Assembly: GCF_900187375.1 (NCBI RefSeq)
Contig: NZ_FYEW01000001.1
Span: forward strand, 744,001 to 808,000
DNA from: Hymenobacter gelipurpurascens
Lineage (GTDB): Bacteria; Bacteroidota; Bacteroidia; Cytophagales; Hymenobacteraceae
DNA length: 64,000 nt
Direction of reading: 5' to 3'
Shown here: positions 4,748-36,839 of the stretch, one piece after another
Numbering within the stretch: the stretch's first letter is position 1
Layout: each line of letters starts with the position of its first letter
The notes under the pieces: model-generated
What the model saw: the letters and a program-made list of their open reading frames with translations, nothing else
Databases searched by the model: none
Told to the model about the DNA's origin: nothing
Translations under genes and position numbers: made by a program

Positions 4748-6949
4748 CTACCGAGCGGAATTAGTGTGGCAGCGCAGCAGGGTGAAATCGGCCTGTTGCC
4801 GGCTGAGCGTGTGCTTGAAATCGAGAATCCACCCTTCAGCCCGTTCGCCGCGCTCGGTGGTAAAGCGAACCCGACCAGTAGGCCTGGCCAGCACACGCAC
4901 AGCATCACGCCAGGTGCAGGGGGCAGTAAAACTGTAAGCCTGATTGAGCCACAGGGGAGCACCCAGATCAGCCACTGGGATATCAGCGTTTTCCACCACG
5001 GCCGTCGCCTCACCAAACAGGCGGGAAGCGAAGGCGTTGTTACCCTCACCGAAGCGGAACCGCACCGACTTGCTGCGCTGGGGCTGCAGGCCCGCTGCTA
5101 GCACGGGCGCATGGCGCCGTAGCACGCGAGCCGGGGAAAGGCGGGCATTGTAGACGGTATCGGGGGAGAATACCCCGGTTAGCTCCGTAAAGAGCTGATT
5201 GCGTTCGGTCACGAAGCCGCGCTCCGCATCCCGCAGCACGCAGATCAGAAACAGGTCGTTATCGGCGCCAGTGTCAGTGGTCGAGGTAGCATCGTAGCGG
5301 TTGCGCCGCACCGACTCGATATAAAAGCCCGACGTGATGTATTCGCCCACGGCGGAATAGGTACCCTGAATAAGGGATAGGGGCAAGCTCCATTCCCGGC
5401 GGGTATTGAACTCATCCAAGCCGTTCACCTGCTGGGCCTGCCACTTGCGGTAGCCGGTTTCCACTTGGTTGTAATAGCGGTCGGTGAGCTCACGCTCCAC
5501 CAGGTTGCTAACCAGTGTACCCTCTTTATCGGGCAGCGCGTCGCTAATGGACTGGGCAAGCTCTAACACCACTTCATCCGAATAGAAGTAGCTGGCCTGC
5601 TCCACTCGTACCACCTCCTGGCCAGTAGGCAGCCGCTCAATACCAGTGCCCAGCCACCACGCGTCGCTAAGCGAGCCAAACAGGCCCTGCCACGTAGCAA
5701 ACAGGCTCTTTTCCGCCAGGGGGAAGCCCCGGGCCTGAAAGCCGCCGGTGACATATGTGAGACTGCCCTCGCCATCAACTGCGTAGGCCGGGCTGGTATC
5801 GGTGCGGCCAAAGAAGTCAGACCGGAATGCTACCGCGCTATCGGTAGTGGCCTGGGCCAGACGGTCCAGCGCCTCATAGGCCAGTAGGCCCGGGCACATC
5901 GTGGCGTCGGTCTGGGTTTCGGCCTCCATCTTGAAGTAGGAGCCGGGCAGCATATCTACCAAAACCGTGAACTGATAGGGGCCGATAGCGGGCCCACTGA
6001 TATCATAGACGTGCAGGCGACCGTAGAAATAGACTTTATCGCCTATCTCCAGCGTGCGGGTCACCTTGTAGGGAGCGGTCAGGTTGTAGCGGAATTCACC
6101 GGCAATACCCGACTCGCGAAAGCTGGCCAGCTTGACCGGCTGCTCGTTGTTGATGCGGAAATAGACCTCGCCATCGGCCTTATCGAAGTCGCCCCGGCCG
6201 TTGGCGCGCTGAATACGCAGGCGGCTGAGCAGGTTGATATCAAAGCTGAAGCGGCCACGCTCGACCGTGGTGTAGATGGCCACTTCGGGTGAGGTGTTGC
6301 CCGTAGGCACTGTCACCCCACCACCGCCCACTTCCTGTACCCCGAAGTCATCAATGGCGGGCGAGCCGAAGCCGAAATACAGCACCTTAAACCGGCTTTC
6401 GCCATCGGTGACATAGTCTGGCAGCGGGGGCAAGGGCGAGGCAGGCGTTACGGCTTCGTAGCGCTTGCGAATAGCTTTGCTGTGCAGCTCTACCGACACC
6501 GGCTCCAGAGCAGCCAGCGACGTGCCACTGATGGAATCACGGCCCAACAGATCTACCGTGGTATCGGCGCGATTGAGAAACTTCTGGGTAAAGCCCGTTT
6601 TCTCGGCTTGGCAGCGGAATTCGGTTGCCGTTTCACTGCGGCCGGTAAAGTCCAGACGCCCCTGGTAGTAAACATGCCAGAGAAAGTCATTCGGATCGAA
6701 AATCTCAATCAGCAGTTCTACCTCTGCTTCAATACCCGCCAACTGGTAGGCCTGGGATAGGTACTTCTTCGCCTCCTTGATGAACGCGAGCTCTACCGTG
6801 TACTCGGTAGTCAGGCCGTGCAGCTTGCCATCGCGGTGCAGCTGAGCACCTACATCTTCCCAGCCCCGTGGGTCATGCTGCGACACCAGCGAGCCGAAAC
6901 GGCTGCTGAGCAGGGTGAAGCGCAGAAGTGGCTGATTTTGTTCTAGCAC
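4748..6949 (-). CDS. Prophage tail/baseplate protein
   Basis: 733 aa. The start is GTG at 6949 (protein begins MLEQNQPLLRF), only two codons after an in-frame stop, so no longer form exists. No catalytic motif is visible. It is mixed alpha/beta without signal peptide or membrane segment. Its place after the tape measure and before the fibre genes is the usual place of distal-tail or baseplate-hub proteins of siphoviruses. One of the four repeated promoter-like elements lies directly upstream (6958-6989), so it probably opens its own baseplate/fibre operon. The specific function is not recognised. Confidence 0.65.
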   Translation of the reverse strand: MLEQNQPLLRFTLLSSRFGSLVSQHDPRGWEDVGAQLHRDGKLHGLTTEYTVELAFIKEAKKYLSQAYQLAGIEAEVELLIEIFDPNDFLWHVYYQGRLDFTGRSETATEFRCQAEKTGFTQKFLNRADTTVDLLGRDSISGTSLAALEPVSVELHSKAIRKRYEAVTPASPLPPLPDYVTDGESRFKVLYFGFGSPAIDDFGVQEVGGGGVTVPTGNTSPEVAIYTTVERGRFSFDINLLSRLRIQRANGRGDFDKADGEVYFRINNEQPVKLASFRESGIAGEFRYNLTAPYKVTRTLEIGDKVYFYGRLHVYDISGPAIGPYQFTVLVDMLPGSYFKMEAETQTDATMCPGLLAYEALDRLAQATTDSAVAFRSDFFGRTDTSPAYAVDGEGSLTYVTGGFQARGFPLAEKSLFATWQGLFGSLSDAWWLGTGIERLPTGQEVVRVEQASYFYSDEVVLELAQSISDALPDKEGTLVSNLVERELTDRYYNQVETGYRKWQAQQVNGLDEFNTRREWSLPLSLIQGTYSAVGEYITSGFYIESVRRNRYDATSTTDTGADNDLFLICVLRDAERGFVTERNQLFTELTGVFSPDTVYNARLSPARVLRRHAPVLAAGLQPQRSKSVRFRFGEGNNAFASRLFGEATAVVENADIPVADLGAPLWLNQAYSFTAPCTWRDAVRVLARPTGRVRFTTERGERAEGWILDFKHTLSRQQADFTLLRCHTNSAR

Positions 6950-6995: not shown

Positions 6996-7364
6996 CTACA
7001 GCCCTTCGGGGTGTTCACGCTGCTTCTTGCGCTCCAGCCAAGCCAGCCGGGCCTGGAATTGAAACACAGGCAGGTTGCCCGCATCGGGGGTGCCGGTTTC
7101 AGCCAGCAAGGCGCACAGGTTCTCGAAGTTGCGGTGCATGCTGGTGAGCACGTTGTCGGGGTCGCCGTCGTGGAATACGTCGGGCCGGGCTGCTTCCAGC
7201 AACCACCTGTCTACCTCTTCTACGATCTTCAGGTAAGACGCCTCGCCACTGAGCAGGTAGTCACATAGTGCCAAGCCCCGCTTACGCTGCTGACTCGCGA
7301 TGGAGATGGCTTCGCCCTCGCCGTTTTCACGCTCCGGAAACAGGTCCTTTAGCTCAGACGGTAG
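6996..7364 (-). CDS. Downstream half of a predicted -1 frameshift tail gene
   Basis: An open frame in the -1 phase relative to the 141-aa gene upstream, continuous from the A9 run at 7365-7373 to the stop at 6996 (122 codons). It has no ATG; the first in-frame alternative start is a weak TTG at 7274, leaving 92 aa. Predicted residues include LPSELKDLFPEREN just after the slip site and ALCDYLLSGEASYLK later. It is mostly helical. The best reading is that it is made only as a C-terminal extension of the 141-aa protein (137 + 122 = 259 aa). Independent translation from TTG or a sequence error in the A run are the alternatives. Confidence 0.6.
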   Translation of the reverse strand, partial: LPSELKDLFPERENGEGEAISIASQQRKRGLALCDYLLSGEASYLKIVEEVDRWLLEAARPDVFHDGDPDNVLTSMHRNFENLCALLAETGTPDAGNLPVFQFQARLAWLERKKQREHPEGL

Positions 7365-7774
7365 TTTTTTTTTACGTCTTCGACTTCCGTCGTTACCATT
7401 TCCATCGTCAGGCCATACTCACTGACTTGTTCCAGCAGGGCCTGCAAAGCGGCTTCTGAGTAGTCCGTAACCGGCTGGCCATCTACTTCGGCAATCAGGC
7501 AGCCAAAGGCCAGCTGCTGGGGCGAGAACTGCTCCAGCGCGAAGTGAAACGCGTAGTGCAGGTTGGCCAGCTCCGTGCCGGCTTCCTGGAGCATGCCGGC
7601 GGCAATCAGCTGGCCAGTGCGACTGAAGCGCTGGTTGATATCGTCCGGAGTAGAGCCAATCCCGCCTTGCTGCACGATATAGGTGTTGAAGGCCAGGTGG
7701 CGCCGCGCCGGCAGCTCGTGCACGGTCTGGTACAGCTTAATTGAATGCAGAGGATTGAGCGAGAGTTGACGCAT
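7349..7774 (-). CDS. Prophage tail protein, upstream half of frameshift pair (assembly-chaperone-like arrangement)
   Basis: 141 aa, ATG at 7774, ending DVKKNYRLS with the stop five codons after a nine-adenine run. Largely helical, soluble, no known motif. The arrangement (short gene, slippery A run near its end, a second frame in -1 phase) is that of lambda G/GT tail assembly chaperones. Those normally precede the tape measure gene, whereas this pair follows it, separated by an AT-rich cargo pair. The assignment is therefore by architecture only. It lies downstream of a strong terminator (7810-7843) and so needs its own promoter, perhaps in 7775-7809. Confidence 0.6.
   Translation of the reverse strand: MRQLSLNPLHSIKLYQTVHELPARRHLAFNTYIVQQGGIGSTPDDINQRFSRTGQLIAAGMLQEAGTELANLHYAFHFALEQFSPQQLAFGCLIAEVDGQPVTDYSEAALQALLEQVSEYGLTMEMVTTEVEDVKKNYRLS
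7364..7375 (-). other. Candidate programmed -1 frameshift site (A9 run)
   Basis: Minus-strand codons read GTA AAA AAA AAC TAC. They contain an A-AAA-AAC heptamer, a canonical -1 slippery sequence, within A9. A backward slip of one base joins the 141-aa frame to the frame ending at 6996 without any intervening stop. RNA polymerase slippage on A9 would give the same fusion. Confidence 0.6.
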
Positions 7775-7809: not shown

Positions 7810-7843
7810 AAAAAAGCCCTGCTATTACTAGTAGGGCTTTTTT
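7810..7843 (-). terminator. Intrinsic terminator after the membrane-protein cargo pair
   Basis: Hairpin with arms AAAAAAGCCCTGCTA and TAGTAGGGCTTTTTT, lying 2 bases after the stop of the 185-aa gene. The A and T tracts make it usable in both directions. It is almost identical to the hairpin at 14284-14318. Confidence 0.85.
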
Positions 7844-7845
7844 CA

Positions 7846-8403
7846 TTAACAGTGATTTGGAATCCAATACTGCTTTTCAGCAGTACGTAGCCTTCCCCAT
7901 CTATCTTGTAGCTCGGTTGCCCAAAGGACAGCTTTGTAAGCGCCTACCTTGACTGCGAGTTTAGCAATGCCGACTACCACCTTTATCATTACACGAGAAG
8001 ATAGAAAAGGCGTATAAGCCTTGAAGGCAATGACCGTGCAGTTTAGAAGTTCTCCATAAAGCCTTGCAACTTCAGGATTATCAACACGGCGAGCGTTACG
8101 AGTAGGCTTGATTACGCTGTGATCGATTTGACGCATTGTCCTGAGGATAGATCCAAGATTGAATGAGTGCTTTACAGCATCAAATTCAAGTGTCACCTGG
8201 TTCGTTCTCTCAATCAACCACCGAACAACGGCATAGTCACGCTTGGTCAAAGCTTCCTGATGTGATTCATGGATAAACTGAATCATATCTGATCGTACCT
8301 CGCAGAAACGGAACATTACTTTGTCATCTCTTCTCATTTTGAAGAGATAAAAAGCAAACCAGATCTGGAATGTTATTACCGGAATAAAGAGCAGATAGAT
8401 CAT
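7846..8403 (-). CDS. Prophage cargo membrane protein (185 aa)
   Basis: Begins with a hydrophobic segment at residues 1-20 (MIYLLFIPVITFQIWFAFYL) followed by a basic stretch KMRRDD, so it is probably N-terminally anchored with a cytoplasmic helical domain. A second weakly hydrophobic patch is near residue 145 (VMIKVVVGIAKLAV). Clearly more AT-rich than the tail genes around it. Its start overlaps the stop of the 96-aa gene by 4 bases (ATGA), so the two are translationally coupled and probably act together. Function unknown: a lysogenic-conversion or superinfection-exclusion factor is possible. It does not look like a spanin or holin I recognise. Confidence 0.6.
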   Translation of the reverse strand: MIYLLFIPVITFQIWFAFYLFKMRRDDKVMFRFCEVRSDMIQFIHESHQEALTKRDYAVVRWLIERTNQVTLEFDAVKHSFNLGSILRTMRQIDHSVIKPTRNARRVDNPEVARLYGELLNCTVIAFKAYTPFLSSRVMIKVVVGIAKLAVKVGAYKAVLWATELQDRWGRLRTAEKQYWIPNHC

Positions 8404-8690
8404 TTTCTAGCGTTTCTTCGGGATGGTTGATGTGAAGGTGGGGTAACATCAAATTTTTTATCGAGCTGAGTCAAGTAAATGTCTCGGTATCGATCATTGT
8501 CTTCCCGTAACCTCTTGATCTCACTATTTTTTGATCTTATCAAAGTCACCATTAGGTAACTTATCAAACCAACCATAGCGAAAAAGAGGGAAATTGTTAA
8601 GGCTTTTGCCCAACCAAGCGCATTAAAAAGTTTGAGAAAACTGTCTGTGAACTCACTGAAAGTAGAAGCTTCTTGTAGTAGTAAACTCAT
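8400..8690 (-). CDS. Prophage cargo single-pass membrane protein (96 aa)
   Basis: One clear membrane segment at about residues 28-52 (ALTISLFFAMVGLISYLMVT), then a charged, probably coiled-coil tail (SKNSEIKRLREDNDRYRD) and a basic C-terminus. First gene of a two-gene AT-rich unit after the tape measure gene, with a -7-like TACTTTAC 8 bases before the ATG and a 16-base palindrome upstream. A holin-like topology cannot be excluded, but the position inside an insertion-like island and its own terminator suggest cargo. Function unknown. Confidence 0.55.
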   Translation of the reverse strand: MSLLLQEASTFSEFTDSFLKLFNALGWAKALTISLFFAMVGLISYLMVTLIRSKNSEIKRLREDNDRYRDIYLTQLDKKFDVTPPSHQPSRRNARK

Positions 8691-13917: not shown

Positions 13918-14277
13918 ATGAAAACTATCAATTCGAGAATTGCGCATCTGATTGCTATAGAGGGGCTAAACAATAATTCATTCGCCAAAAGAATAGGCGT
14001 TTCGTCCACTACTATCAGCTACTTGGTAGGGGAGAGGCAGAGCCGGCCGGGCTTCGATGTGATCGAGAAGATTGCGGTAGCATTTCCTGACATCAACATG
14101 GACTGGCTGATCCGGGGAACGGGCCCGGAACGGAAGCAGGCCGGCAAAGCACCTGACACCTTCTGGAGCCTGATGCAGAACGAACGTAGCCGCTATGGCA
14201 CGCTAATGGGGCTGCATGGCAGCTTATCGGGCGACTTTGATGTGGTGCTGGGCGAGTTGAAGACAGCATCGAACTAA
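13918..14277 (+). CDS. XRE-family transcriptional regulator inside the late region
   Basis: 119 aa. Residues 1-60 form a helix-turn-helix of the type common in phage repressors of Bacteroidota (NSFAKRIGVSSTTISYLVGE, then the conserved continuation FPDINMDWLIRGTGPE). The C-terminal 55 residues are short and helical with no S24 peptidase domain, so it is not a RecA-cleavable repressor. Read on the opposite strand to all surrounding late genes, with its own promoter-like repeats and a terminator 6 bases after the stop. This is the design of an independently expressed lysogenic cargo gene. Its targets are unknown: itself, the neighbouring secreted-protein gene or host genes are possible. Confidence 0.8.
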   Translation: MKTINSRIAHLIAIEGLNNNSFAKRIGVSSTTISYLVGERQSRPGFDVIEKIAVAFPDINMDWLIRGTGPERKQAGKAPDTFWSLMQNERSRYGTLMGLHGSLSGDFDVVLGELKTASN

Positions 14278-33017: not shown

Positions 33018-35548
33018 TATGCAGCCTCCTTTCTAGGCGTTTCCGCATCCAACAGATCAAACAGACTGGGCACAGAGGCCTTGTACTCCGCTTCCCGGCA
33101 GTACACCTGGCCAGCCTGCCAGTACTCTTTCTTGAGCTCGATACCGTAGCCGCGGCGGCCTAGCGTAACGGCCCGGAACGGTACTGTCATCAGCCCGCCG
33201 AACGGATCTAGTACAACCTCATCCTCATTGCTCCAGCGGCGAATCACACGGTCTACAATGTCAAAGGGCAGGGGGCAAATGTGGTTCTGAGCGTTGCGCT
33301 TGAACTGCTCACCATTGAGCGTGCGCATGTACACCACATCGGTGGCTACCATCTCGCTGTAGCTCTGGGGAGGCAGCATCATAAAGGAAGAGGGCAAGCG
33401 GCCGGCGCTATCCAGCTCTTCACTGAGCCGAACATGCTCCTCATAATCATAGACGTGGGAGAGGTTCCGCTTCTTGAACCACTTGCCAATAGTGTCCAGG
33501 CTCTTATTGCGGATGTCGCCAGGGCTCAGCAATCGGTCGCCACTGCTACGCCACAACGCGTGGGCATCCAGCTGCCAGCGGCCCCTGGTGTACTCTTCCT
33601 TGTTCTTTACTACCGGCTCATCCGCATAGGCATTGGAGAGGTCGGAGGGGAGCTTGCGGAACAGCAGCACATATTCGGGCATGCCATAGCTCATCTTTGT
33701 GCCATCCTTGCACTGCTCACTCCAGCCTAGGCGGTAGGTCTGGTTATTCTCGCGCACTACATCGGTCAGGATGGTATTGCGACCCATAAAGACGAACCCG
33801 CCCTTTTCAAAAGCATCCGAAGTCTGATCCGAAAACCGCTCGACTGTCATAAAGCCATTGCCTGTAACCGATCCGTACCGAATCCGGTCCTTGACGTGTA
33901 TAGCAGCGATACGACCAGGCTTGAGCACCCGTAGCAGCTCTGGCACTAGGAACTCGAACTGCTCAAAGAAGCGATCGTTGCTCTCGTTATGCCCGAAGTC
34001 GTTGTAGGAGGCAGAGTATTCGTAATGGTTGCCGAAAGGGATGCTAGTGTGCACGAGGTCCACAGAGTTATCGGCCATCGTGCGCAGCTCAGCTACACAA
34101 TCGTTGTGCACGCAGGTGTAGCGCTTGCCCTGAGCTACCTCGCGCTCCACACCCAGTGAGCGGGTAAGGCGGGCTTTTTCCGCTTGATGCGACAGCCCGT
34201 ACGTTTTGATGATGCCACGCATGGTTTCCATCAGCTCGTTGTGGCGCTGCCACTTGGCTTCCAGTTCTTTGCGGATCGGCTCTTCAGCAGCGGTGTAGAT
34301 GATGTGCACCTGCACTGACTCTTTCTGCTGGAAGCGGTGTGTGCGGTGCACAGCTTGAATAAAGTCTTCGAAGCGGTAATCAATACCCAGAAAGACGTTG
34401 CGCGAGCAGTGCTTCTGAAAATTACAGCCAGAGCCGGCTATTTCTGGTTTGGTAGACAGGTAAGGAAACTCGCCGTGGCTGAAGCCTACAATCAGCTTTT
34501 CCCGTAGCTCGAGGTCCTGCGAACCGAATACCGACTCCACACCAGGTACCGCTTCCGCAATGGCGCGGCGCTCATCTTCCAGGTGGTGCCAGATAAGCCA
34601 GTGGTCCAACTCTTCGGCCTGGAGCAGCTGCACCATCTTTTCCACGCGAGCAGGAATGCTGCGCTTCTTCTCGCGAGCTGCCGCCTGCAGGTTGCCTTTC
34701 GTAGAAGCGAATACTTCCGACTGGCCACTACGCTTATCAACGTGCGTATCCGATTCGCCCTCCGTAATCAGGTGCCATTCTACCCGTAGTTCGGGCAGGT
34801 CATAGCCCTCATCGGAATAGCCCAGATCAGAGGGGCGGGTAAGAAACAGAGCCCACGAGCTAACCCACAACCAGAAGTCTGCCTCGTGCTGGGGGTGCAG
34901 GGTGAGGTTGCCAGCCTTCTGCGAGTCGCGCTTGAACCAACGGGTTAAGGCCTGGCCTGAGTCCATTACACCCAGAAATTCGGCGTAGTGAATCAGCTCC
35001 TTATACTTGTTAGGCGCGGGCGTTGCCGTGCACACAAACCGAAACGGTACCGACTTCAACAGCTTGGTGAATTGCTGATAGGTATCGGTACCAATGCTGC
35101 GCAGTACACTGCCCTCATCGAGTGTGACGGCCGTCAGCTTGGCTAGAAATTCCGCCGAAAAATGCCCGTCGCGAACCCGCTCATAATTGGTGATGAGAAA
35201 CGGGCTGTCACTGACCATCGCTTCCGCATCGTTGCGCACGTAGTTGATGCGCACACCCAGACGAGGGCCATCTTCTTCCGTGAACTGATGCTTCACACCC
35301 AGCGGGCATACAATCATCACGTAGCCTCCGCGCTCTTCTCGGATAGCGCGTAACAGCTCGATTTGGGTATGCGTCTTGCCTAGGCCAAAGCTCGAGCCTA
35401 TTAGGGCGCGACCTTTTTTCAGGGCCCAAACGATAGTATCTACCTGGTGCGGTAGGCTGGAGGGGTGAAGGCTGGAAGGATTTATATCAAAGCCGGCATC
35501 TTCGGCCAGCTTGATTTTGGAGCCTAGAAATTGAGTGTAAGAATCCAT
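33017..35548 (-). CDS. SF2 helicase-DNA methyltransferase fusion
   Basis: 843 aa, ATG 35548. N-terminal half is an SNF2/SF2-type helicase: Walker A variant SSFGLGKTHTQ near residue 52, motif II LDEGSVLRS near 145, motif III TATPAPN near 175, and the motif VI region IQAVHRTHRFQQ near 400. C-terminal half from about 475 is an N6-adenine or N4-cytosine methyltransferase with catalytic motif IV as TSIPF (variant of TSPPY) near 503 and the SAM-binding motif I LDPFGGLMT near 790, a beta-class order. Candidate role: self-methylation against restriction, or remodelling coupled to modification. The altered motif IV needs testing. Confidence 0.85.
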   Translation of the reverse strand: MDSYTQFLGSKIKLAEDAGFDINPSSLHPSSLPHQVDTIVWALKKGRALIGSSFGLGKTHTQIELLRAIREERGGYVMIVCPLGVKHQFTEEDGPRLGVRINYVRNDAEAMVSDSPFLITNYERVRDGHFSAEFLAKLTAVTLDEGSVLRSIGTDTYQQFTKLLKSVPFRFVCTATPAPNKYKELIHYAEFLGVMDSGQALTRWFKRDSQKAGNLTLHPQHEADFWLWVSSWALFLTRPSDLGYSDEGYDLPELRVEWHLITEGESDTHVDKRSGQSEVFASTKGNLQAAAREKKRSIPARVEKMVQLLQAEELDHWLIWHHLEDERRAIAEAVPGVESVFGSQDLELREKLIVGFSHGEFPYLSTKPEIAGSGCNFQKHCSRNVFLGIDYRFEDFIQAVHRTHRFQQKESVQVHIIYTAAEEPIRKELEAKWQRHNELMETMRGIIKTYGLSHQAEKARLTRSLGVEREVAQGKRYTCVHNDCVAELRTMADNSVDLVHTSIPFGNHYEYSASYNDFGHNESNDRFFEQFEFLVPELLRVLKPGRIAAIHVKDRIRYGSVTGNGFMTVERFSDQTSDAFEKGGFVFMGRNTILTDVVRENNQTYRLGWSEQCKDGTKMSYGMPEYVLLFRKLPSDLSNAYADEPVVKNKEEYTRGRWQLDAHALWRSSGDRLLSPGDIRNKSLDTIGKWFKKRNLSHVYDYEEHVRLSEELDSAGRLPSSFMMLPPQSYSEMVATDVVYMRTLNGEQFKRNAQNHICPLPFDIVDRVIRRWSNEDEVVLDPFGGLMTVPFRAVTLGRRGYGIELKKEYWQAGQVYCREAEYKASVPSLFDLLDAETPRKEAA

Positions 35549-35603: not shown

Positions 35604-36839
35604 TTAGAGATAGTTGTTGAGCATCACAGGCATGAGCAGGCAGAGCATGCCATCATCGGCATCAGCCGACTGCAGCACAGCCGCGCGACTAGGCAGGCTC
35701 ATGCCGATTTTCACGCTCTGGCAGGGCATCTTCTCTAGGAAGTAGCGTAGGAAGCGGGCGTTGAAGCCGATATCCAAATCCTGTCCCGTGTAAGTGCCTG
35801 GGATGGTCTCTGTGGCCTTATTCTGGAAGTCCAGATCCTCGGCAATTATTCGGCAATCCGACGCCTCTTGCAGGTCGAACTTCACCTGATAGGTGGTTTT
35901 GTTGCTGAACAGCAACAGTCGTTTCACGCTGGCTAGTAGTTCTGTGCGGTGTACTATCAGCACATTCGGGTTCACTGCTGGAATGACGTTGTGAAAGTCA
36001 GGATACTGTTCCGCAATAAGCCGCACCTGAAATTCACCTTTCTCCAGCTTAAACAGGGCCTGTGTAGCACCGACGATTACCTCGACCACCTCACGTTGGC
36101 TTACCAGCTTGAGCAGTATCTCGCAGGCCTTACGAGGTAGAATAAAGCTGTTAATAGTGCCTTTCAGCTCGTGCTGATCCTGTTTTCTCATTACCACCAA
36201 ACGGTGGCCATCAGTGGCAGCAAATTCCAGCTTATTGGATGTAACAATGACCAACACGCCGCACATAGCGGGGCGCAACTCGTCTGTGCTGGTGACAGGC
36301 AGAGTCGCACTCAATCCAGCCAGTAGAATATGGCCAGGCACAGATAGGGTAGTACCGACAAAGCCCAGGGCGACTTCAGCAGGATAGTCCCCTGCTTTCT
36401 CCCCTGCTATTTCATACCGGGCGCTACCAGTGCCACTCTGCAACAGCGTGTGCGTTAGTGCTGCGTTTATGTGCAGAGAAGGGTCTGGCTTGTCATAATC
36501 CAGCATCTTGAGCGTAAGCGGCTGATCTTCCAGATTTTTCAGTAGCTCAATCAACTGTTTGCCGGGTACGCATAGGGCGGCGGCATCGGTATCACGACGT
36601 TCCAATAGAAGCGGCCGCGAAGTAAAGCGGTGTTCCAGGTCGTATCCAGTAACCCGCAGGTAGGAGAATTTTCCGTACTGACCTGATTCAGAAGTGATGT
36701 CGAGGAGCAGGTTCTCCAGAATCGGAACAATCGGCTGATGGGAGGGAACCGCGAGTTGAGCGTATTGGGCCGCTTTCAGCAGGGCCGCATTGCTAAGTAA
36801 AAACGTGGTAAGCGCAGTGCCAACAGTGGTAGTAGACAT
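35604..36839 (-). CDS. dnaN: DNA polymerase III beta sliding clamp (phage copy)
   Basis: 411 aa with three repeated clamp domains. Diagnostic pieces: ATDGHRLVVMRKQ near residue 213 (host-type ATDGHRL), LPRKACEILLKL near 240, EQYPDFHNVIP near 285, and C-terminal LLMPVMLNNYL, matching the family MP[MV]xL ending that builds the polymerase-binding pocket. It encircles DNA and tethers the polymerase. No polymerase gene is seen nearby, so it probably recruits the host Pol III or a distant phage enzyme. Starts at ATG 36839. Confidence 0.9.
   Translation of the reverse strand: MSTTTVGTALTTFLLSNAALLKAAQYAQLAVPSHQPIVPILENLLLDITSESGQYGKFSYLRVTGYDLEHRFTSRPLLLERRDTDAAALCVPGKQLIELLKNLEDQPLTLKMLDYDKPDPSLHINAALTHTLLQSGTGSARYEIAGEKAGDYPAEVALGFVGTTLSVPGHILLAGLSATLPVTSTDELRPAMCGVLVIVTSNKLEFAATDGHRLVVMRKQDQHELKGTINSFILPRKACEILLKLVSQREVVEVIVGATQALFKLEKGEFQVRLIAEQYPDFHNVIPAVNPNVLIVHRTELLASVKRLLLFSNKTTYQVKFDLQEASDCRIIAEDLDFQNKATETIPGTYTGQDLDIGFNARFLRYFLEKMPCQSVKIGMSLPSRAAVLQSADADDGMLCLLMPVMLNNYL

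Follow-up and report, generated by a model that had tools for sequence, protein, structure and literature searches.

The DNA analysed here, called the window, is a stretch of 64,000 nucleotides from Hymenobacter gelipurpurascens (G000:C1:744001-808000), and it holds a prophage of the Hymenobacter type that carries on the minus strand a 141-aa gene together with the continuation of that gene in the -1 frame (Table 1). Along the minus strand the order is tape measure gene, 96-aa gene, 185-aa gene, hairpin, 141-aa gene, -1 frame and 733-aa gene. The 141-aa gene (7774..7349 on the minus strand, stop included) ends in GTA AAA AAA AAC TAC CGT CTG AGC TAA, and its -1 frame is open from 7418 down to the TAG, with 122 codons past the AAC and 259 residues overall. 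A preliminary description of this DNA had pointed to the in-phase A-AAA-AAC within a run of nine adenines (A9) near the end of the 141-aa gene, to the 122 open codons and the 259 residues that they make up with domain 1, and to the place of the pair 3' of the tape measure with two genes between, all of which the codons and coordinates confirm. It was mistaken in describing the -1 frame as free of ATG, since the -1 stretch has one at its codon 76 (7139). This codon is too far inside to start domain 2, and the first ATG, GTG or TTG of the stretch is codon 31 at the earliest, within the conserved part. The A9 run is the longest run of A in the window on either strand, the sole other run of at least eight being an A8 (15396, minus strand). 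Gene, run and -1 continuation together are a genuine feature of this DNA. By fold calculation the hairpin 5' of the pair (7843..7810) reaches -17.1 kcal/mol (z -4.48; none of 200 shuffles as low); it is missing from the output of a consensus scan. Its place upstream suggests that in the window the pair is a transcription unit of its own.

Table 1. Features of the recoding locus and its surroundings, in window coordinates
Feature	Position	Strand	Remarks
Domain 1: 0-frame ORF, 141 aa, predicted short product	7352..7774	-	stop TAA 7351..7349
A9 run: candidate slip site, GTA AAA AAA AAC in phase	7365..7373	-	
Domain 2: -1 frame, 122 codons, predicted C-terminal part of the long product	6999..7364	-	stop TAG 6998..6996
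Tape measure protein, 1495 aa	8907..13394	-	PF10145 1.5e-11; TIGR01760 1.1e-23
96-aa gene, between tape measure and pair	8400..8690	-	no family above cut-off
185-aa gene, between tape measure and pair	7846..8403	-	no family
733-aa tail-region gene, 3' of the pair	4748..6949	-	phrog_15220, E 5.2e-104
Terminator-like hairpin with U run, immediately 5' of the pair	7810..7843	-	folding

The length of the -1 frame was dropped as evidence. Among the window's ORFs of at least 100 codons, 19 of 176 have a -1 frame that stays open for 122 codons or more from about 16 nt before the stop; as open -1 frames of this length are common in the window, the evidence must come from relatives. Domain 1 matches positions 9-135 of the phage family phrog_8914 (E 1.9e-26) and domain 2 matches positions 158-249 (E 1.3e-07). 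The window pair, in other words, matches half by half the opposite ends of a single 250-aa family, and three fused relatives match that family over its full length. Between the loci L001 and L002 the -1 frame differs at 34 first, 21 second and 66 third codon positions over 115 codons, and the excess at third positions is found in both halves of the pair. Judged from sequence comparison, this conservation, with homologues of the -1 product and a coding-type pattern of differences, lifts the pair above chance.

Relatives were collected from genomes, phage records and viral contigs. Domain 1 is present in 12 and domain 2 in 11 of 204 genomes of the taxonomic family, the window's own genome counted; the order, class and phylum samples, which overlap and include that genome, yielded matches in at least 14 of 390, at least 2 of 395 and at least 3 of 395, these being lower bounds with at most 10 candidates scored per genome. 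A tblastn search of phage records with E up to 1 found domain 1 in 45 and domain 2 in one (E 0.07); with profiles, domain 2 adjoins domain 1 in all six phages fetched. Three scans of IMG/VR gave 9, 75 and 2 loci, partly overlapping, and genome contigs gave 4 loci, the four named relatives from such contigs being Hymenobacter. The peptide patterns that selected loci in the 9- and 75-locus scans and in the genome contigs are located within domain 1 at a distance from the run. With a profile built from 31 fused members, 1,226 proteins were retrieved at E<=0.001 among 6,154 candidates. Homology over both halves extends to gp20-gp21 of Croceibacter phage P2559S, ORF23 of Bacteroides phage B124-14 and a protein of Elizabethkingia phage TCUEAP2 annotated "tail assembly chaperone"; some members of phrog_8914 bear that annotation. 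Five of the six phages fetched differ from the window in being fused, and the annotation rows of the six flag no joined or recoded CDS. One locus, L035 (G020), also carries a diverged, fused and run-less paralogue (10483-10139) upstream of an A9 pair and tape measure.

The junction between the domains was then surveyed across these loci. Domain profiles gave 141 domain-1 hits, 138 of them with domain 2, one L035 hit, L143 and L144 being dropped; L014-L025, which had been fetched with domain 2 (L015, with the lone domain 2 of G072, among them), were left out of the junction counts, and L005 and L030 are one locus. Merging identical 300-base cores left 101 distinct junctions, among which near-copies remain, for example L082-L084 and the three G366 rows. 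A run of at least eight A's stands at the domain boundary in 92 of the 101, and of at least nine in 90. Among the 92 rows with a run, 65 are fused, 23 are split by -1 and 4, doubtfully, by +1. Fused rows have A9, A10 or A11 in 20, 42 and 3 cases and -1 rows A9, A10 or A12 in 18, 4 and 1, so that 84 of the 92 runs are A9 or A10 (38 and 46, respectively, among fused and -1 rows). A distant -1 relative, L012, has A6 only, and eight rows, in two tree groups, are fused without a run and have no visible route to a short form. By way of background, 438,628 bases outside the junctions, counted in loci of at most 6 kb, contain 19 sense-strand runs of at least eight A's and none of ten or more. Codon bias does not explain the runs, because AAA makes up 0.50-0.64 of lysine codons in three groups of loci. 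Across the aligned junctions, then, the A run is conserved in the family and the reading frame is not.

The preliminary description had proposed to compare homologues for conservation of the run and of the -1 frame, of which the run is conserved and the frame is not; it had also taken homologues fused in a single frame as evidence against a programmed shift, and such homologues do exist (65 with and 8 without the run). The two-product reading survives them because the 65 retain the run, while the 8 run-less forms count against its generality. On a quick tree of the 101 rows, which came with a long-branch warning, run presence changed twice and the frame at least ten times among rows with at least six A's, a figure that falls to 6 without the +1 rows and to 4 if L101, L134, L139 and L057 are also removed; on the same tree the frame state is largely stable within clades. 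L005, from Hymenobacter 15J16-1T3B, is fused inside a group otherwise -1 or run-less, and its context, GTT A9 GTC, makes it fused by different surroundings and not by one missing A. L134, with A11, is fused and its sister L139, with A10, is -1.

A +1 split was set aside as an established state, given that the G366 copies have several homopolymer indels and that the A8 of P2559S may be one base short, which leaves only L090 as a +1 row. The three G366 copies (L050, L057, L059) are near-identical and separated by several short indels, mostly in homopolymers (A8 or A9 at the run), which look like assembly error. P2559S (L037/L149) has A8 and the +1 arrangement, versus A9 and -1 in its 96% relative L150; a single base may be wrong in its reference record.

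The codons around the run differ between the two arrangements. In -1 rows with A9, the two lysine codons and the codon after them supply eight A's and the ninth is the third base of the codon before; an A of this kind is taken from the preceding codon in 22 of the 23 -1 rows with at least nine A's. GTA encodes the valine that precedes the lysines in 20 of 21 cases in -1 rows versus 3 of 39 in fused rows (Fisher p 8e-12, indicative only and overstated, because the rows are related and near-copies remain). Over the loci concerned GTA makes up 33% of 1,718 valine codons, with single loci at 7-58% and L037 alone contributing 457 valines at 57%. In fused rows, on the other hand, the lysines alone give nine A's and the next isoleucine often supplies a tenth. 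This isoleucine is ATA in 34 of 45 rows, an immediate +1-frame stop following in 33 of the 34, and ATA is 32% of isoleucine codons overall in the fused-A10 loci, an excess overstated for the same reasons as the Fisher p. The +1 frame of fused rows closes after a mean of 4.4 codons, counted from the last AAA, versus 16.3 in synonymous shuffles; the -1-frame stop, at 7.1 versus 7.7, is no closer than in shuffles, which tells against a tuned -1 stop. Stops in both other frames occur within 5 codons in 43 of the 65 fused rows and within 15 codons in 55. Folding of 15 rows, one of them the run-less paralogue L011b, brought out no conspicuous RNA structure downstream (z -1.55 to 1.13), and Rfam gave matches below the gathering score only.

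We read the locus, with about even confidence, as a chaperone-type pair in which a short and a long protein are made from one gene by slippage on the A9 run, RNA polymerase being the likeliest enzyme to slip. The two products would have domain 1 in common, one of 141 aa stopping just past the run and one of 259 residues joining domain 1 to domain 2. RNA polymerase slipping on the run would leave a share of mRNAs with one extra A (A10); these would be translated straight through as ...V-K-K-K-L-P-S-E-L... to give the long form, and A9 mRNAs would give the short form. Fused relatives would be the mirror image, with the template frame specifying the long product and slipped mRNAs meeting nearby stops to yield the short one, in the manner of Thermus dnaX. 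Since slippage yields all frames, the genomic frame could drift under the RNA polymerase reading; fused and -1 (perhaps also +1) versions would have been swapped several times with the tract kept, and the polarity of recoding would flip in evolution. Run, frames, homology, conservation and position are direct observations, from which we infer the coexistence of both products, the polymerase as slipping enzyme and the chaperone function.

As to the enzyme itself, we favour RNA polymerase over the ribosome, in a judgement that could fall either way, since polymerase slippage fits two features better. First, the run persists in 65 fused relatives, whose long product requires no shift. Second, the length of 9-10 is mostly held by a base dispensable to the heptamer. 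The run-less fused rows and L012 with its A6 are evidence against polymerase slippage. Both mechanisms give products of equal length, and it is the junction residue, Lys or Asn, that distinguishes them. A wider proposition has in our view an evenly balanced chance of being right: RNA polymerase slipping on a tract of 9-11 A's would be how a large group of siphophages of Bacteroidota produces its tail-chaperone pair, while the genomic frame drifts.

Classical programmed -1 ribosomal frameshifting at A-AAA-AAC in the style of lambda G/GT, as the preliminary description proposed, is a serious contender that we consider distinctly less probable. The ribosome would read AAA AAC, move one base back and run on into domain 2, and in fused relatives its shift would produce the short protein, as happens at E. 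coli dnaX. Window and -1 relatives alike have the heptamer in phase, and ribosomal slippage is possible wherever -1 rows have A-AAA-AAC, A-AAA-AAG or A-AAA-AAA in phase; L011 has the dnaX-type A-AAA-AAG, which L012 keeps with only six A's. According to the available parts of two papers, tail chaperones of many phages use such frameshifting (PMC5009743), and efficiencies of 6% and 7% were measured for two chaperone-cluster genes (PMC3711429). On the other hand, the ninth A is superfluous for the heptamer, yet nearly all -1 rows borrow one and fused rows seldom do; fused rows retain their 9-11 A's, and the 15 folded rows reveal no stimulating structure. What stands of the earlier proposal is a recoded two-product gene of the tail-chaperone type, with a run conserved in relatives; the mechanism need not be ribosomal.

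The remaining explanations dispense with recoding at the level of expression, and all are improbable. If the true run were A10, the gene would simply be fused and the split an error of sequencing or assembly, a suspicion encouraged by the fused relatives and by the likely homopolymer errors in the three G366 copies and in P2559S. The same A9 in the same phase, however, recurs in Hymenobacter YC55, polaris and nivis, which were assembled separately, and in the IMG/VR contigs L062-L064, and the GTA before the run is typical of -1 and not of fused rows; we consider an error very unlikely. It is slightly less likely still that the gene is split into separate proteins, domain 2 starting on its own (at the TTG at 7274 or similar), or that the pair has decayed: the annotation of P2559S shows gp20 and gp21 as two genes, and G072 has a lone domain 2 (L026 16764-17120), but the late first start codon in the -1 stretch, the third-position excess in both halves and the retention of a run for which a split gene would have no use all argue against it. 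Phase variation by slipped-strand mispairing of the DNA at the run, suggested by lengths from 8 to 12 among relatives (L134 and L139, for example), has an equally slim chance, as frame state is mostly stable within clades, run length is concentrated at A9 and A10, and a tail gene beside the tape measure would gain little from being switched off.

Tail chaperone pairs are a standard example of ribosomal frameshifting; in lambda G/GT the slip site is G-GGA-AAG, the short product is in 30:1 excess, and no stimulating structure is known. The window pair resembles G/GT in the N-terminal part that its products are predicted to share, in a slippery run that is in phase and close to where the first frame ends, in the -1 continuation and in its tail-module setting, and its relatives lie upstream of the tape measure. 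It differs in the A9-A11 homopolymer, in the fused relatives, in having no family match to a known chaperone, and in that the window pair itself follows the tape measure, with a terminator-like hairpin before it. The lambda geometry claimed in the preliminary description holds for the in-phase heptamer and the open -1 frame; the position in the window is different, as that description had pointed out. If the long form is the main, template-encoded product of fused phages, the lambda ratio would not hold in them. That ratio has been reported as crucial in lambda (PMC5009743, in the part available). The same part of PMC5009743 describes Thermus thermophilus dnaX, in which transcriptional slippage acts on a run of nine; the likeness lies in the run of nine, in nearby stops in the other frames and in a long frame that is fused in relatives of the window pair. 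It also reports efficient slippage at nine A or T residues, with dnaX as the precedent, and an RNA:DNA hybrid of 9-10 bp for Thermus RNA polymerase, with which, by analogy, a run of 9-10 nt would fit. Gene and function are different, and the polarity in the window is reversed, the template giving the short product and the long one needing a slip. The features expected of slippage of the Thermus type are found here: a run of at least 8-9 A or T (A9 in the window, at least nine A's in 90 of 101 junctions) and near stops in fused rows, closer than in shuffles only in the +1 frame. E. coli dnaX, by comparison, relies on ribosomal slippage with stimulators; it and its relatives of reversed polarity have the same type of run, but no stimulators were seen at the window junction. 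In some bacteria the longer dnaX product seems to come from the shift, a similar change of polarity (PMC5009743, same part). In the portion of the literature covered, transcriptional slippage was nowhere reported as the source of a tail chaperone.

A tail assembly chaperone function would follow from position, from a design with two domains and two products, and from the way some relatives are annotated. Of 66 viral loci examined, 57 have a placed tape measure, and in all 57 it lies downstream of the pair on the same strand, counted anywhere within the locus and regardless of adjacency; 4 of 6 annotated phages, P2559S, B124-14 and TCUEAP2 among them, name it as the gene directly following, the other two having unnamed genes there. 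In a further set of loci, the window included, the arrangement varies. The window, L027, L029 and L030 have the pair 3' of the tape measure on the same strand; it is upstream of it in L035 (G020), divergent from it in L062, and on the opposite strand beside the 733-aa gene in L028, L031, L032 and L033; L064, L065 (core sequence identical to that of L028) and L063 (a short match) also have it on the opposite strand, and L036 was left out of these classes. The place after the tape measure looks like a local rearrangement within some Hymenobacter prophages. Two loci show rearrangements of their own: L026 (G072:C22:306000-325900) has two opposed copies of the 733-aa gene, an inverted tape measure and a lone domain 2 divergent from it, and in L034 (G050) the tape measure is inverted relative to the 733-aa gene. 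An invertible tail module is possible.

No Pfam or NCBIfam family matches the pair above cut-off. Structure models of domain 1 (pLDDT 87) and of the fused protein of L071 (pLDDT 90) matched no solved structure at E<=0.001 by Foldseek, VIA-align or sequence, an absence that is uninformative; a viral structure library returned three unnamed proteins at E<=0.001 and two "tail assembly chaperone" entries only at E 0.91 and 2.5. As fold and family match no known chaperone, we do not file the pair under the lambda family, and as it lies downstream of the tape measure in the window, we describe it as working like, and homologous to, genes so annotated and not as lambda-type G/GT. Virions of B124-14 contain ORF38, 39 and 42, and the phrog_8914 homologue is not among the proteins found in the part of the report available, which is weak evidence for the absence from virions expected of a tail chaperone (PMC3338817).

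A tract that is conserved while the frame is not separates selection of a slip site from selection of a ribosomal -1 site, and relatives that keep the A run with no need of a slip suggest that it is RNA polymerase, more than the ribosome, that slips. The runs of A8-A12 in fused and -1 settings form a natural series for testing how much the short-to-long ratio matters, and fused members of the phrog_8914-type family (1,226 proteins) may yield two proteins invisible to gene callers.

Several other genes of the window deserve mention. A small HTH protein (PF13443) is encoded at 13918-14274 on the plus strand, opposite to the row of tail genes amid which it lies and immediately 5' of the tape measure and a 118-aa gene. 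Further along, on the minus strand, are a PAPS-reductase-type protein (PF01507, 31947-33017) in which a stretch of about 27 residues is internally duplicated in tandem, as recognized by eye, an 843-aa protein (33020-35548) whose single chain unites a helicase part of SNF2 type with an N6/N4 DNA methylase part, and, in the prophage region, a homologue of the DNA polymerase III beta clamp (35607-36839) with three Pfam domains.
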